Shown one piece after another: positions 45,510 to 52,796 of a stretch of DNA of 64,000 nucleotides; the first letter of the stretch is position 1; every line of letters starts with the position of its first letter. The notes below the pieces were generated by a model. The model saw only the letters and a list, made by a program, of their open reading frames with translations, searched no databases and had not been told where the DNA came from. The position numbers and the translations under genes are program-made. This stretch comes from an uncultured Nocardioidaceae bacterium (GTDB lineage: Bacteria > Actinomycetota > Actinomycetes > Propionibacteriales > Nocardioidaceae): NCBI GenBank assembly GCA_902805845.1, contig CADCUI010000066.1, positions 1-64,000 on the forward strand. The letters are read 5' to 3'.

Positions 45510-46157
45510 ATGCTGTTCTCGAGGAACAAGAGCCGTCTGCCGAGCGCCGAGGAGGCGCTGCCCGGCCGCGACCAGCCCTGGTTCTCGCTTCCGGAACGGC
45601 ACCAGGTGCTGGACGCCCCGGTGGTCACCGACGACGTCCCCGCCGGTCTGGAGGTGGCGATCTTCGGGCTCGGGTGCTTCTGGGGCGCCGAGGAGATCTA
45701 CTGGCGGATGGAGGGCGTCTGGTCCACCAGCGTCGGGTACGCCGGCGGCAGCACCAGCCACCCGTCGTACGACGAGGTCTGCTCGGGCATGACCGGCCAC
45801 ACCGAGGCGGTGCGCGTGGTGTTCGACCCCTCCCGGGTCTCGTACGAGCAGCTCGTCAAGACGTTCTTCGAGGTCCACGACCCCACCCAGGGCATGCGGC
45901 AGGGCAACGACGTCGGCACCCAGTACCGCTCGGCCATCTACACCACGACACCGGAGCAGGTGGAGGTCGCGGAGCGGCTGACCAAGGTGTACGGCGAGGA
46001 GCTCGCCGGACGAGGGCTGGACCCGATCACGACCGAGGTCGCCCCCGCGCCGACGTACTACTACGCCGAGGACTACCACCAGCAGTACCTGGCGAAGAAC
46101 CCCTACGGGTACCGCTGCCACGCGAACACCGGAGTGCCCTTCCCCAGCGACTCGTAG
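45510..46157 (+). CDS. msrA: Peptide methionine (S)-S-oxide reductase
   Basis: 215-residue repair enzyme that reduces S-methionine sulfoxide in proteins. The catalytic Cys56 is in VAIFGLGCFWGAEEIYWRME; further markers are TSVGYAGGSTSHPSYDEVCS, TGHTEAVRVVFDP and the GTQYRSAIYTT segment. The N-terminal 48 residues are longer than the minimal fold, as in many actinobacterial MsrA proteins. The ATG has a strong GGAGG at the right distance, so unlike its divergent neighbour metB it has a leader. Electrons would come from thioredoxin. Confidence 0.95.
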   Translation: MLFSRNKSRLPSAEEALPGRDQPWFSLPERHQVLDAPVVTDDVPAGLEVAIFGLGCFWGAEEIYWRMEGVWSTSVGYAGGSTSHPSYDEVCSGMTGHTEAVRVVFDPSRVSYEQLVKTFFEVHDPTQGMRQGNDVGTQYRSAIYTTTPEQVEVAERLTKVYGEELAGRGLDPITTEVAPAPTYYYAEDYHQQYLAKNPYGYRCHANTGVPFPSDS

Positions 46158-47926: not shown

Positions 47927-49486
47927 TCAGCAGGCGGAGTACGAGGTGCGGGTCAGCGCTGGGCCGGTCCTGACCTGCTTGCCGGCGCGCAGGCTCCACG
48001 CCCGCTGCCAGTCGGAGTTCACCTGGGCGCCGTTCATCTCGGTGTCTGCGCCGATCAGGCTGAGCCGTGGCACCAGCTTGACGCCGAGCTGTGCCCCCGC
48101 GTCCCTGACGGTGCCGATCGGGTTGCTGTCGCGGAACCAGGTGATGTGGCCCCGCCCGACCTCGACGGCGACGTTGAACGACTGCTCTGCCAGGCGCACG
48201 TCCGGCAGGGTCCGACGCCAGACGGCGCCGTTGCTGCGGGACCGTACCCCGAAACGCATCCCGGGTGACGCCATGGTGAAGTCGGCGAGGACGACGCTCT
48301 CGGAGGGGCAACCAGTTACGGGTGCCCCGGCCGGGACCAGCTCGAGCCGGAACCGGTAGGGCCTGGCGCCGGTCTCCCACGGGCGACCCTGGAGGCGGAA
48401 CTCCCACCGGCCGTGCGCCCGGGCAGCCCCGTCCAGAGTTGCGGCGATGCTCCCACGGTCACCGGGACCGACCCGCTTGAACTTGCTCTGCAGCACCAAG
48501 CCTCCGTTGAACGGGGTGACGCGGCCTGTTCCGCTGGAGCTGGCACGCCATTTGCCGCCCAGGACGTTGCCCTTCGACGGCGGCGAGTTGAGGCTCTGCC
48601 CGTGCGTCCAGGCGTAGTCGTAGCGCACCGGTCCCCACCCGAACCGGCCCGAGGCGGTGGGTCGGAACGACGACCTGGTCGTCGTGGAACGGCGCAGTGC
48701 AGTGGTAGGCGGCTGGCTGACGGCGCGGGCACGCGAGGCGGAGAAGTAGGCGGGGAACGAGGCGAACCAGCCGATGCTGTGCGCTCCGGCGGTCCAGCGC
48801 TGTTCGCGGGCGCGCAGCACCTGGGTTCCGGACGCCGGCGCGGTCACGGTGAAGGACGTCCTGCCGTCGGCATTGGTGGTCCCGGTGCCGATGGTGCTCC
48901 ACTGCTGGGCGTTGACGCGCTTCTGGAGCAGCACGGTCCGCCCGGGAATCGGCGGCGGCGTGCCCCATTCGCCCGCGACCTCCGGGGTGGTGTCGACGAC
49001 GACGGTGAAGCGGGTGCCGGGACGGACCCGGTAGAACGGGTAGTCGGGGTTGCCGCCGACCGGGGTGAGGGTCAGCTCCTGCGGGTTGGCCCTGAACAGG
49101 TACGCGTTGGTGACCCGGCCACCGCCGGTGACGCGGTAGCTCACGTTGACCATCGCGGGGGCGCGGAAGACGAAGTCGAAGCGTCCGGAGCTGTCCGTGC
49201 GGAACGCGGACCCGGGCACGTCGCCCCAGGTGTCACCGCGCCGGTTCCCCTTCGCCTGCAGGTGCACCGACCGGGATCCGGTGACGCCGAGATTGCCCTG
49301 GAACCGGACCGCCTGCCCGGCGACGTAGCGGTTCGGGCTCACCGACAACGAGCCGGTGGTGGCGGCCACCGCCGCGCCGGCCGACTGGAGCGGGGTGGCG
49401 GCCACGAGAGCGGGGGCAACGGCCACGGCCGACGCAGTGAGCGCGAACCCAGCGGCGCGGAGGGCGGTGAGGAGACGAAGGTGCAC
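47927..49486 (-). CDS. Secreted multidomain protein with lectin/GH16-like C-terminus
   Basis: 519-residue exported protein. The signal peptide (LRAAGFALTASAVAVAPALV) ends near residue 42. Residues about 45-260 look like two Ig-like/carbohydrate-binding beta-sandwiches (GSLSVSPNRYVAGQAVRFQG; TNADGRTSFTVTAPASGTQV). Residues about 300-500 resemble the concanavalin-like fold of GH16 proteins (GRWEFRLQGRPW; RGHITWFRDSNPIGTV), but the E-x-D-x-x-E catalytic motif is not found, so it is probably a non-enzymatic glycan binder. Two C-terminal cysteines may pair. I do not recognise a named family. Confidence 0.7.
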   Translation of the reverse strand: MHLRLLTALRAAGFALTASAVAVAPALVAATPLQSAGAAVAATTGSLSVSPNRYVAGQAVRFQGNLGVTGSRSVHLQAKGNRRGDTWGDVPGSAFRTDSSGRFDFVFRAPAMVNVSYRVTGGGRVTNAYLFRANPQELTLTPVGGNPDYPFYRVRPGTRFTVVVDTTPEVAGEWGTPPPIPGRTVLLQKRVNAQQWSTIGTGTTNADGRTSFTVTAPASGTQVLRAREQRWTAGAHSIGWFASFPAYFSASRARAVSQPPTTALRRSTTTRSSFRPTASGRFGWGPVRYDYAWTHGQSLNSPPSKGNVLGGKWRASSSGTGRVTPFNGGLVLQSKFKRVGPGDRGSIAATLDGAARAHGRWEFRLQGRPWETGARPYRFRLELVPAGAPVTGCPSESVVLADFTMASPGMRFGVRSRSNGAVWRRTLPDVRLAEQSFNVAVEVGRGHITWFRDSNPIGTVRDAGAQLGVKLVPRLSLIGADTEMNGAQVNSDWQRAWSLRAGKQVRTGPALTRTSYSAC

Positions 49487-49746: not shown

Positions 49747-51138
49747 CTACCGCAGCTCTCCCAGGACGGGCAGCGTCACGCGCATGACCGTGCGTCCAGG
49801 CTCGGAGTCGATCGACATCTCGCCTGAGTGGCGCTCCTCGATGATCCGCCTGGAGATGTCGAGCCCCAGACCGGTCCCCTTGCCCACGTCCTTGGTCGTG
49901 TAGAACGGCTCGAAGGCCCGGGCCTGCACGTCCGGAGGCATCCCCGGCCCGGTGTCGGCGACCTCGACGGCGATGCGACCCAGGTCGTCGACGTGGGCGG
50001 ACAGCCGGAGGGTTCCCGCACCCTCCATGGCGTCGACCGCGTTGTCGATGAGGTTGGTCCAGACCTGGTTCAGCTCCCCTGGGATCGCCTCGATCATCGG
50101 CAGGTCGCCGGCGAAGTCCCGCTCGACGCTGACGCCCGCGAGCTTGTACCCCAGCATCACGACGGTGCTCTCGAGCCCCTCGGTGACGTCGATGCGCTGC
50201 ACCGCGGCCCGGTCGAGCTGGGAGTAGGAGCGCACGGCCGCCACCAGTCCGGACACGCGGCCCGTGGCGTCCTTCACCTCCGACAGCAGCGCCTGCATGG
50301 CCAGCGAGTGAGCGACCCACTCGATGCCCGCGGCCAGAGCCTCCGGGCCGAGGACCACGGCGAGGCGGTCGCACCAGGCGGTGTCCACCCCGGCCGCCGC
50401 CAGCACCGGAGCGAGCTCCCACTCCCGCTCGACGCCGTGGCCGCCCAGCCAGGTCGACAGGTCGTCCTCACGGTCGGCGAGTGCCAGCGGACCTGATCCG
50501 GTCTCAGCAGGACGGACGGCGCGGTGCAACGCGTCGATCTCCGCGAACTGCTCCGCCGAGACCCCGTACGTCGAGAGCTGGATCAGGGACGAGACCAGCG
50601 CCTGGGTCGTGGTCGCCAGGGAGTCCACGGCACGTGTCGCTGCGGCGGCCGGGTTGTTGATCTCATGGGCCAGTCCGGCCGCCAGGGTGCCGAGCGCCAC
50701 CAGCGCTTCGCGCTGACGCGCCGTCGACTCGATCCGGCGGACGGTGTCGACGAGTCCCCGGATGAAGTGCACGCCGAAGGCGAACCACTCGTCACCCAGT
50801 CTGCGCAGCTCCTCGGCCGGCACCTCGAGCACCCGGCCACGCTCGAGTGCGCGGCCGGTGGCGAAGCAGAGGCCGTGGGGGTCCCAGGCGGCGAACCCGC
50901 CGGCCCACTGGCCCGGTTGACTCACCGCGCCCACCAGTGACTCCTCCTTGCCGACGCGCTTCGCGAGGCCGATGGACCCCTCCAGCAGCACCCACCACTT
51001 GTCAGCCGGCTGGCCCTCCTTCCACAGCTCGTCTCCGGTGTCGAAGACACGCTCGTCGCCCACCCGGACCAGCTCTGCCAGCTGCTGCTCCTCCAGGCCG
51101 GCGAACAGCGGCAGCCGGCGCAGCTCCTCGACGTCCAT
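49747..51138 (-). CDS. Sensor histidine kinase with cyclic-nucleotide-binding-like input domain
   Basis: 463-residue cytosolic kinase without membrane segments. Residues 1-125 form a cNMP-binding/Crp-like domain (LPLFAGLEEQQLAELVRVGD; VLLEGSIGLAKRVG), but the phosphate-binding cassette (G-E-x-x-L ... R-x-A) is not recognisable. The dimerisation domain has the phosphoacceptor His158 in LAAGLAHEINNPAAAATRAV. The ATPase domain has N-box ELNQVWTNLIDNAVDAMEGA, G1 DTGPGMPPDV and G2 KGTGLGLDISRRI. Its ATG overlaps the stop of the receiver-flavoenzyme gene by one base (TGATG), so the two are cotranscribed and are probably cognate. Confidence 0.92.
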   Translation of the reverse strand: MDVEELRRLPLFAGLEEQQLAELVRVGDERVFDTGDELWKEGQPADKWWVLLEGSIGLAKRVGKEESLVGAVSQPGQWAGGFAAWDPHGLCFATGRALERGRVLEVPAEELRRLGDEWFAFGVHFIRGLVDTVRRIESTARQREALVALGTLAAGLAHEINNPAAAATRAVDSLATTTQALVSSLIQLSTYGVSAEQFAEIDALHRAVRPAETGSGPLALADREDDLSTWLGGHGVEREWELAPVLAAAGVDTAWCDRLAVVLGPEALAAGIEWVAHSLAMQALLSEVKDATGRVSGLVAAVRSYSQLDRAAVQRIDVTEGLESTVVMLGYKLAGVSVERDFAGDLPMIEAIPGELNQVWTNLIDNAVDAMEGAGTLRLSAHVDDLGRIAVEVADTGPGMPPDVQARAFEPFYTTKDVGKGTGLGLDISRRIIEERHSGEMSIDSEPGRTVMRVTLPVLGELR

Positions 51139-52796
51139 CAGACGGTGGCCAGGTAGCGGTGGACGAGGTAGATCGCCATGGCACCCTCACCGACCGCGGA
51201 CGCGACGCGCTTCATCGAGTCCAAGCGGACGTCGCCGGCGGCGAACACGCCGGGAACGCTGGTCTCCAGCGCGTACGGTGGACGCTGGAGCGGCCACCTT
51301 CCTTCATCCGCGGAGGCGAGCACGTCCTGGCCGGTGAGGACGAATCCTCTCGCGTCCCGGGCGAGCTGCTCGCCCAGCCAGTCGGTGCGGGGAGCGGCGC
51401 CGATGAAGACGAACAGCCAGCTGGCCGGGACCTCCTTCTTGGTCCCGCTCTTCCGGTCCGCGAGGGTCAGGGTCTCCAGGCGGCCGTCGCCACCGGCAGC
51501 GGCGACCTCCGTGTGGAGGAGGACTTCCACGTTGGGCGTCGCCGTGATCCGGTCGACGAGGTACTGCGACATGCCGCTCGCCAGGTCACCGCCCCTCACC
51601 AGCAGCACCACCCGCTCGGCGTACTTGGCGAAGTTCAGCACCGCCTGACCTGCAGAGTTGGCCGCACCCACGACGTAGACGCCGTCACCCTCGCACTGCC
51701 TCGCCTCGCTCGCGGAGGCCCCGTAGTAGATGCCCCGTGACGCCAGCTCCTCCACGCCGGGCGCCTCGAGGCGCCGGTAGGAGACGCCGGTCGCCACCAC
51801 CACCGACCGCGCCTCGATGGCGCCGCCGTCTCCGAGCAGCACCGCCCGGACCGGTCCGCGCTCCTCGAAGCCGATCCCGTCGCTGGCGAGGACGGTCTCG
51901 GCGCCGAACCTGGCCGCCTGGGCGACGGCGCGATGCGTCAGGTCGGATCCCGACAAACCCTTCGGGAACCCCAGGTAGTTCTCGATGGAGGCGCTCTGCG
52001 CCGCCTGTCCACCGGGAGCGTCCCGTTCGATCACCACGGTGGACAGTCCTTCCGAGGCGGCGTAGACCGCAGCAGCCAGCCCCGCAGGACCGGCGCCGAC
52101 GATGCAGAGGTCGTACAGGGGTTGCTCAGCCCGGGTGCGCAGGCCGAGGGCGTCCGCGAGCTCCCGTGGTGAGGGAGCGACAAGCGCGTCCCCGTCCGGC
52201 ACGAGGACCAGCGGGAGGTCCTGCATGGTCCGCTGCGCGACGTCGATCAGGCGTCGGGCCTCCTCGTCCCGCTCGACGTCCAGCCAGCGGTAGGGCACGT
52301 GGTTGCGAGCCAGGAAGGTCTTGACGTCATAGCTGCGGTCGGACCACCGGTGACCGATCACCCGGACCTGGGAGGTCTCCGGAGGATGGTCGCTCGACCA
52401 GTCGTCGAGGAGACCGTCCACCACCGGATAGAGCCGCTCGGCGGGAGGGTCCCACGGCTTGAACATGTAGTAGTCGAGCGCGATGTCGTTGATCGCCTTG
52501 ATCGCGACGTCGGTGTCGGCGTACGCCGTCAGCAGGAGGAGCTTCGTCTCGGGGGACACGCGTCGCACCTCGCCGAGCATCTCGATGCCCGTCATCTCGG
52601 GCATCCGCTGGTCCGAGGCCACCAGGGCCACCGAGCGGTCCCGCAGGGTCAGCTCGTCGAGGAGCGTGAGCGCCTCGCCCCCCGACGTGGCGGCGATCAC
52701 CCGGTAGTCGGCGGCGTAGCGGGCTCGGAGGTCGCGGACGATGGCCTGGGAGACCACGGGATCGTCGTCGACCGCCAGGATCGTGGGCTTGCTCAT
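51138..52796 (-). CDS. Receiver domain fused to thioredoxin-reductase-like flavoprotein
   Basis: 552 residues in three parts. Residues 1-135: complete receiver with the acidic triad DDD (10-12), phosphoacceptor Asp62 in ASDQRMPEMTG, Thr90 and Lys113 in MFKPWD. Residues 140-220: a glutaredoxin/thioredoxin-like domain whose CxxC position reads WSDRS, without cysteines. Residues 228-552: a thioredoxin-reductase fold with FAD motif VGAGPAGLAA, NAD(P) motif YVVGAANSAGQAV and C-terminal GVFAAGDVRLDSMKRVASAV. The redox CxxC of true TrxR is replaced by Ala-Ser-Ala-Ser (360-363). The output is thus a flavoenzyme rather than a DNA-binding domain, controlled by the downstream kinase. This layout is known in databases as fused response regulator/thioredoxin-disulfide reductase. 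Confidence 0.92.
   Translation of the reverse strand: MSKPTILAVDDDPVVSQAIVRDLRARYAADYRVIAATSGGEALTLLDELTLRDRSVALVASDQRMPEMTGIEMLGEVRRVSPETKLLLLTAYADTDVAIKAINDIALDYYMFKPWDPPAERLYPVVDGLLDDWSSDHPPETSQVRVIGHRWSDRSYDVKTFLARNHVPYRWLDVERDEEARRLIDVAQRTMQDLPLVLVPDGDALVAPSPRELADALGLRTRAEQPLYDLCIVGAGPAGLAAAVYAASEGLSTVVIERDAPGGQAAQSASIENYLGFPKGLSGSDLTHRAVAQAARFGAETVLASDGIGFEERGPVRAVLLGDGGAIEARSVVVATGVSYRRLEAPGVEELASRGIYYGASASEARQCEGDGVYVVGAANSAGQAVLNFAKYAERVVLLVRGGDLASGMSQYLVDRITATPNVEVLLHTEVAAAGGDGRLETLTLADRKSGTKKEVPASWLFVFIGAAPRTDWLGEQLARDARGFVLTGQDVLASADEGRWPLQRPPYALETSVPGVFAAGDVRLDSMKRVASAVGEGAMAIYLVHRYLATV

Follow-up and report, generated by a model that had tools for sequence, protein, structure and literature searches.

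The window analysed here, a stretch of 64,000 nucleotides (nt) of contig CADCUI010000066.1 from an uncultured Nocardioidaceae bacterium (GCA_902805845.1), carries on its minus strand two adjoining genes: one for a response regulator fused to a cysteine-less glutaredoxin-like domain and a thioredoxin reductase (TrxR)-like flavoprotein, the other for its partner histidine kinase. The flavoprotein gene (51138..52796, 552 amino acids plus stop) starts with the ATG at 52796; its TGA and the ATG of the kinase gene (49747..51138, 463 amino acids plus stop) have base 51138 in common, which is the one-base overlap reported in a preliminary description of this DNA. The host genome holds a single copy of the flavoprotein gene, plus a separate, normal TrxR (L002) in which CATC is present.

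Domains of the flavoprotein and loss of its dithiols

The flavoprotein begins with a receiver (REC; residues 6-117, 52446..52781, minus strand; Pfam Response_reg, E 7.8e-16). The phosphorylation residues listed in the preliminary description, i.e. DDD at D10, D11 and D12, then D62, T90 and K113, are all present, and none of them varies over the 57 rows of an alignment of relatives with an intact receiver. The C-terminal part is a Pyr_redox_2 module of thioredoxin-reductase fold (residues 228-538, 51183..52115, minus strand; Pyr_redox_2, E 3e-33), with the FAD motif G234xG236xxG239. When it is aligned with the TrxR of the host, CAT-C of the latter falls on G359-A-S-A-S363, without any cysteine, just as the preliminary description had read Ala-Ser-Ala-Ser in place of CxxC. 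The only cysteines of the whole protein are C231 and C368.

Between these two modules lies a glutaredoxin/mycoredoxin-like domain (about residues 141-222, 52131..52376, minus strand), folded in the predicted model as beta-alpha-beta-alpha-beta-beta-alpha. For the single window protein the Glutaredoxin Pfam match is weak (E 0.29). Nevertheless a profile of this region built from 26 rows matches, as its best hit, the Mycobacterium tuberculosis glutaredoxin Rv3198.1 (2lqo, E 1e-7), which we take to be mycoredoxin-1, and 19 of the 26 rows match PF00462 with E no higher than 1 (7.1e-5 for the best row). The WCGYC of 2lqo aligns with WSxxS of the flavoprotein family, the CxxC site being S152-D-R-S155 in the window protein; the domain is thus glutaredoxin-like and devoid of cysteines, as first described.

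We collected 158 members of the family, including that of the window (152 distinct cores, six members duplicating another sequence), taken from genomes of relatives, from named genomes and from plasmids. The named loci are the best 80 of 574 candidates and come from two seed patterns; as one pattern spans T90, this set is biased toward intact receivers. A further 40 loci were hand-picked from the places listed for the genomes of relatives. The best 80 comprise 47 loci of Actinomycetota, 26 of Cyanobacteriota, two each of Chloroflexota and Thermomicrobiota, one of Acidobacteriota, one of Bacteroidota and one with no phylum assignment, and plasmid records extend the family to Deinococcus and Burkholderiales. 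No relative was found on viral contigs in one single-protein scan that reaches close relatives only, the phage collection not being searched.

None of the 158 members has CxxC at the TrxR loop or at the glutaredoxin site. Position 152 is Ser in 140 of them and position 155 is Cys in one. Position 364, which aligns with the Asp adjoining the second Cys of the host TrxR, is E in 127 and D in 11. As judged from the alignments, the sampled family as a whole lacks the redox centre, and the window protein is in this an ordinary member; since the same features recur in 158 members, the observation made in the window goes far beyond chance. The normal dithiol route is indeed unavailable to these proteins, as had been proposed.

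Could a thiol have moved elsewhere, or be supplied by a partner, so that the protein is after all an ordinary thiol reductase? C368 would be the candidate: no other cysteine close to the loop is common (C368 occurs in 111/158 members and 48/57 intact-receiver rows), and trxA lies in two plasmid gene runs of relatives described below. This cysteine is however unpaired and missing from 47 of the 158 members; C231 and C368 occur jointly in only 47. CxxC is found anywhere in the core in 5 of the 152 distinct sequences, in none of them at either of the two dithiol sites. A relocated cysteine pair, which the preliminary description had named as a possible refutation, was looked for with a CxxC scan of the cores and by counting cysteines column by column, once in 57 rows and once in 158; no conserved pair came out, and we rejected it. 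An ordinary thiol reductase is thus very improbable.

The residues of the cofactor sites behave differently from the dithiols. G234, G236, G262, G263, Q264, N273, Y358, G377, N380, S381, A382, Q384, Y412 and D522 occur in all 158 members, S410 and G239 in 157, R401 and M409 in 155. The FAD motif therefore stands as first described, but the nucleotide motif, which had been called intact as well, does not: the Rossmann motif reads G-A-A-N-S-A, with Ala for the second Gly of GxGxxA in 123 of the 158 members, and HRRxxxR of the host TrxR is cut down in the window flavoprotein to a single Arg, R401. At the level of sequence, the NAD(P) site is conserved yet non-canonical, and the pattern of conservation is one of selection on FAD and nucleotide binding, not of decay. 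A decaying or misannotated gene, which the missing CxxC might otherwise bring to mind, is hardly credible in view of the open frame, the intact gene pair, full-length relatives 64-91% identical to the window flavoprotein (those next in the list of matches) and invariant cofactor and phosphorylation residues.

These features set the family apart from the known enzymes that it resembles. It shares with low-Mr TrxB the fold and the FAD GxGxxG motif; unlike TrxB it has no CxxC, its nucleotide motifs are altered, and REC and glutaredoxin-like domains stand in front. The window protein reaches 208.5 bits with TIGR01292 (TrxB), below the cut-off of 343.45, and 151.4 bits with TIGR03140 (AhpF), below 502.9. 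AhpF, presumably built with a thioredoxin-type domain before its TrxR module as in the window flavoprotein, provides the top two Foldseek matches, aligned over the whole length with a TM-score of only 0.37-0.39; by contrast with AhpF, there is here one glutaredoxin-like domain, and neither module has a dithiol. TrxR-type ferredoxin/flavodoxin-NADP reductase (FNR) is not known to have CxxC either and shares the fold of the model (Z 24.8-25.9, best root-mean-square deviation (rmsd) 3.6), but its sequence match is weaker than that of TrxR (3ab1, E 3.9e-16, vs 7aaw, E 1.6e-42). In plasmid records the family is annotated as thioredoxin-disulfide reductase or as plain FAD-dependent oxidoreductase. 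As it lacks CxxC and stays below the cut-offs of the TrxB and AhpF models, the former name is suspect and probably misleading.

The architecture itself is catalogued, as previously stated: a census of two-component systems records a REC-thioredoxin reductase combination, termed Mycobacterium-like (PMC5847659), and the accessible part of that census is silent on the missing dithiol, the glutaredoxin-like middle domain, the partner kinase and the function. No functional study of this architecture was found among open-licence PMC papers, in agreement with the earlier statement that its reaction and signal are not established, and the term thioredoxin reductase was not found in the accessible parts of the low-oxygen-locus papers.

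Interchangeable regulators and the dedicated kinase

The conserved core is preceded by an intact receiver at 118 loci, a degenerate receiver at 23, a domain resembling cyclic nucleotide-monophosphate (cNMP) binding domains at 11 and no regulator at four; at two loci the flavoprotein frame is split. The degenerate receivers, found in relatives of the host (L129-L145, L155-L159, L161), have lost T90 in 22 of 23 cases; K113 or the acidic pocket is frequently gone as well. The cNMP-fused "thioredoxin-disulfide reductases", as they are named in databases (e.g. in L168 and L170), have the same core, with the cNMP-like domain in place of the receiver; L168 is of the same cysteine-less core and family as the window protein. 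That different regulators (REC, pseudo-REC, cNMP-like or none) stand on one core argues for the core being the output. The degenerate-receiver and cNMP-fused relatives are natural controls, the former for the loss of phosphorylation.

A survey of the genomic context had been proposed as a check. With a profile of the kinase family, a kinase was found within 3.5 kb, on either strand, at 111 of the 118 intact-receiver loci (105 of 112 distinct intact-receiver cores), and at none of the 23 degenerate and 11 cNMP loci. The two split-frame loci are left out of these counts, L072 being with a kinase and L094, at a contig end, without; L154, truncated at a contig end, is counted as bare, L056, whose kinase frame is broken into pieces, as having a kinase, and on one side of L140 the flank is 11 bases long. 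All seven intact loci without a near kinase hold a full-length kinase in the same genome: in L096 it lies 3.9 kb off, and the sequence of L102 stops 166 bases beyond the flavoprotein gene. Near one of the bare relatives, L169, a weak match to the kinase (107 bits) lies on the opposite strand.

The same picture emerges from 118 genomes, namely that of the host and relatives from its genus, family and order. At E <= 1e-60, 67 intact-type flavoproteins adjoin 67 kinases on the same strand, with the kinase downstream in 66 pairs and upstream in one, and no orphan kinase was found elsewhere in these genomes. The intact class is defined here by at least 51% identity over the length, plus two matches in two pieces, so that it rests on a reading of the receiver at the collected loci and on identity elsewhere. 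Both genes occur in the same 50 genomes; in the 29 genomes whose flavoproteins (E <= 1e-60) are all of another form, such a kinase is absent. The kinase is the dedicated partner of the intact receiver, and this pairing is well supported. Receiver residues and kinase are kept or lost jointly; of the signs available, this one speaks best for phosphotransfer being of importance.

A tree of 90 rows made with a quick method (51 of the 118 intact loci, hand-picked for spread, all 23 degenerate, 11 cNMP and four bare ones, and the TrxR of the host) places the intact-receiver class on one side of a branch with support 90; L163, a cNMP form of Deinococcus, falls with that side. The five groups, host TrxR included, need five changes, the minimum possible being four. 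The root is uncertain, as the host TrxR is a very long outgroup branch, and we do not deduce from this tree the order in which the regulator forms appeared.

At some loci two kinases accompany one flavoprotein gene, either in tandem (L080, L090, L104, L105, L116) or one on each side (L111, L164, L165). Such loci, cyanobacterial or belonging to Deinococcus and Burkholderiales, together with the general co-occurrence of the two genes, could be accommodated by a reverse flow of information: the flavoprotein would sense the redox state of its flavin, or the ratio of NAD(P)H to NAD(P)+, and by way of its receiver would drain or gate a kinase that acts in reality on another regulator. We think this improbable. 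Where the core carries a degenerate receiver or a cNMP domain, no family kinase is nearby, so its role does not need the kinase; moreover a second receiver gene is absent from the neighbourhood gene clusters listed for the best 80 of 574 loci.

The kinase and the gene neighbourhoods

The kinase has three parts, all on the minus strand. Its N-terminal sensor (residues 30-114, 50797..51051) is cNMP_binding-like, i.e. CRP-like, and reaches the PF00027 cut-off (39.8 vs 27.5 bits). A DHp domain (50209..50784) follows with H158 in HEINNP and an extended hairpin: a helix at residues 119-190, short helices at 195-248 and a helix at 253-310. It stays below the Pfam HisKA cut-off (13.8 vs 26.9 bits). 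HATPase_c (residues 355-458, 49765..50076) comes last, with conserved boxes that we assume to be those known as N, G1, F and G2. H158, N366, G397, F409, F412, G419, G421 and G423 are invariant in 51 kinase rows, N362 and D395 being conserved in at least 90%.

The predicted model of the kinase has a mean predicted local distance difference test (pLDDT) score of 87.9. Its DHp domain is unusual, with two very long helices linked by three short ones; this insert is mostly of high confidence and has conserved positions, W240 being invariant in the 51 rows. In fold searches with the whole model, which did not probe the extended hairpin on its own, the matches were histidine kinases, such as ZraS (9jfj, Z 22.6, rmsd 3.5), and kinases related to them; they covered mainly the catalytic domain.

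In cNMP domains an Arg before Ser/Thr is, we assume, the phosphate-binding residue; inspection by eye did not reveal it in the 51 kinase rows or in 11 rows of flavoprotein cNMP domains. On this lead, which depends on a motif that we presume, canonical cAMP sensing by the kinase was set aside, and the sensor probably does not bind cAMP as such domains usually do. Between the cNMP-like domains of flavoproteins and those of cyanobacterial kinases phmmer gives up to 77 bits. The domain of L163 scores better with its best kinase row (71.8 bits) than with the best PDB chain (62.9); for that of L168 the best PDB chain reaches 44.8 bits and no kinase row is among the 25 matches listed. These scores are suggestive only of a possible common origin of the two sets of domains.

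Clustering of the open reading frames (ORFs) of at least 70 amino acids around the best 80 of 574 loci recovered the flavoprotein in 80 and the kinase in 68, before the more sensitive profile search. Judging by their position and strand, the other large clusters were frames antisense to these two genes or shadowing them, and the next one was a transporter ATPase, at 14 loci and scattered distances. No third conserved neighbour was found among at most the 45 largest clusters of these loci.

A zf-UBP gene lies within 2.5 kb of 8 of 11 cNMP-fused and 2 of 4 bare loci, 6 of 120 intact ones (the two split-frame loci included) and none of 23 degenerate ones; it was not found in the window. On a Rhodococcus plasmid (L168) and a Streptomyces plasmid (L170) a run of dnaK-grpE-dnaJ-cbpM-clpB-trxA-zfUBP ends in the cNMP form. 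In Tsukamurella and Streptomyces zf-UBP comes directly after the kinase, and Clp, Hsp20 and HdeD are near the bare form of Paraburkholderia. The other plasmid neighbourhoods inspected had no stress-type genes of this sort. These neighbours of relatives, and not those in the window, hint at a setting of redox or proteotoxic stress.

In the window the neighbours examined encode DUF427 and DUF1707 proteins, an MsrA-type protein and a Cys/Met pyridoxal phosphate enzyme. The MsrA-type methionine sulfoxide reductase (45513-46157, plus strand) lies about 3.6 kb past the kinase; an MsrA-like ORF, recognised by eye, is likewise near the flavoprotein of L110, probably by coincidence. Downstream of the kinase, an ORF of 519 amino acids (47930-49486, minus strand) has no Pfam match at E up to 0.001. 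A single case in a Bacteroidetes metagenome-assembled genome (L077:6233-8557) shows a Na/H-exchanger-TrkA (Kef-like) protein between flavoprotein and kinase; its C-terminal glutaredoxin domain resembles that of the flavoprotein, with one Cys (CALT) at the motif.

Predicted structure and possible role of the system

The model of the flavoprotein has a mean pLDDT of 83.8, residues 260-280, probably a FAD-binding loop, being below 50. The TrxR fold is present (5vt3, Z 31.8, rmsd 2.2 over 301 residues), and the arrangement of the two nucleotide-binding parts can be compared with the conformations of TrxR. The model fits 5mh4, a TrxR titled as being in the flavin-reducing (FR) conformation, with Z 31.6 and rmsd 2.2 over 297 residues, and similarly 5usx, which contains NADP and FAD (rmsd 2.6), and the TrxR-thioredoxin complex 1f6m (rmsd 2.7), which we take to be FR as well. 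It fits poorly the structures titled as flavin-oxidizing (FO; 5mjk, rmsd 8.0; 5w4c, 6.0), and also 1tde (8.2), presumably FO. As predicted, the flavoprotein thus seems to resemble TrxR in its flavin-reducing state. An enzyme without dithiol would have no use for the FO arrangement, so that an FR-like model fits a plain NAD(P)H-to-flavin reductase.

On balance, we consider it probable that a dedicated two-component system controls here an enzyme which transfers electrons from NAD(P)H to flavin and passes them to an acceptor other than a disulfide; phosphotransfer, gating, acceptor and signal are what we infer in this reading. The soluble kinase, triggered by the signal of its CRP-like sensor, would autophosphorylate on H158, and the phosphate would move to D62 of the receiver. 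The phosphorylated receiver might then alter the access to the flavin or to the NAD(P) site of the attached enzyme, hydride would pass from NAD(P)H onto FAD, and the electrons would leave FAD directly for a non-thioredoxin acceptor—a quinone, oxygen or peroxide, or a partner protein. As the dithiols of TrxR and of glutaredoxin are both gone, the acceptor should indeed be other than thioredoxin.

Several points weigh against this proposal. The association of kinase and intact receiver reflects few independent events (the five changes on the 90-row tree): a Fisher p of 6e-20, computed with the two split-frame loci among the degenerate ones, exaggerates it and is not to be taken as a probability, because the regulator classes are near-clades. 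The CRP-like sensor is not universal, since the kinase match starts at residue 106-137 in L084, L091, L109 and G011:C21; in L084 (6310-7839, minus strand) the N-terminus looks by eye like a receiver instead. The nucleotide site is atypical, so that NADH, NADPH or neither may serve. The FR-like fit comes from a single prediction, with no normal TrxR as control and with residues 260-280 poor; FNR 8c16 (rmsd 3.6) is likewise closer to the model than the FO structures are, hence the arrangement is no proof of one activity.

The flavoprotein may also play a non-enzymatic role, as a sensor or a scaffold. It would be in this case a ligand-sensing pseudoenzyme, which binds FAD and NAD(P)H with no useful turnover and regulates a partner by its shape, phosphorylation setting the affinity. 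Both dithiols are gone in the whole family, the nucleotide motifs are non-canonical, and no third conserved neighbour gene was found save zf-UBP in some relatives: all this would suit such a role. On the other hand, binding alone would not call for FAD and nucleotide residues that hardly vary across several phyla, nor for a model in the flavin-reducing arrangement, even though neither proves turnover. We regard the pseudoenzyme as doubtful, without dismissing it as readily as the reverse flow.

Returning to an active NAD(P)H-to-flavin enzyme, we tentatively extend the idea to the family, though with less assurance than for the window pair. Its members could be a widespread class of "flavin-only electron gates", that is a mycoredoxin-TrxR (AhpF-like) relay minus both dithiols, in which the electrons of NAD(P)H would go out directly from FAD. 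Phosphorylation, a pseudo-receiver and a CRP-like domain would be exchangeable means of controlling it.

Enzyme outputs are already known among response regulators, most of which switch, as far as is known, genes or second-messenger enzymes. To this the present analysis adds a loss of dithiols throughout the family, a kinase paired one to one, regulators that can be exchanged and a model in the flavin-reducing arrangement. If the proposal is true, a kinase wired one to one to a redox flavoenzyme would constitute a direct link between a phosphorelay and NAD(P)H chemistry, and the bacterium would possess a sink for NAD(P)H that a phosphorelay switches, without transcription, under redox or proteotoxic stress.

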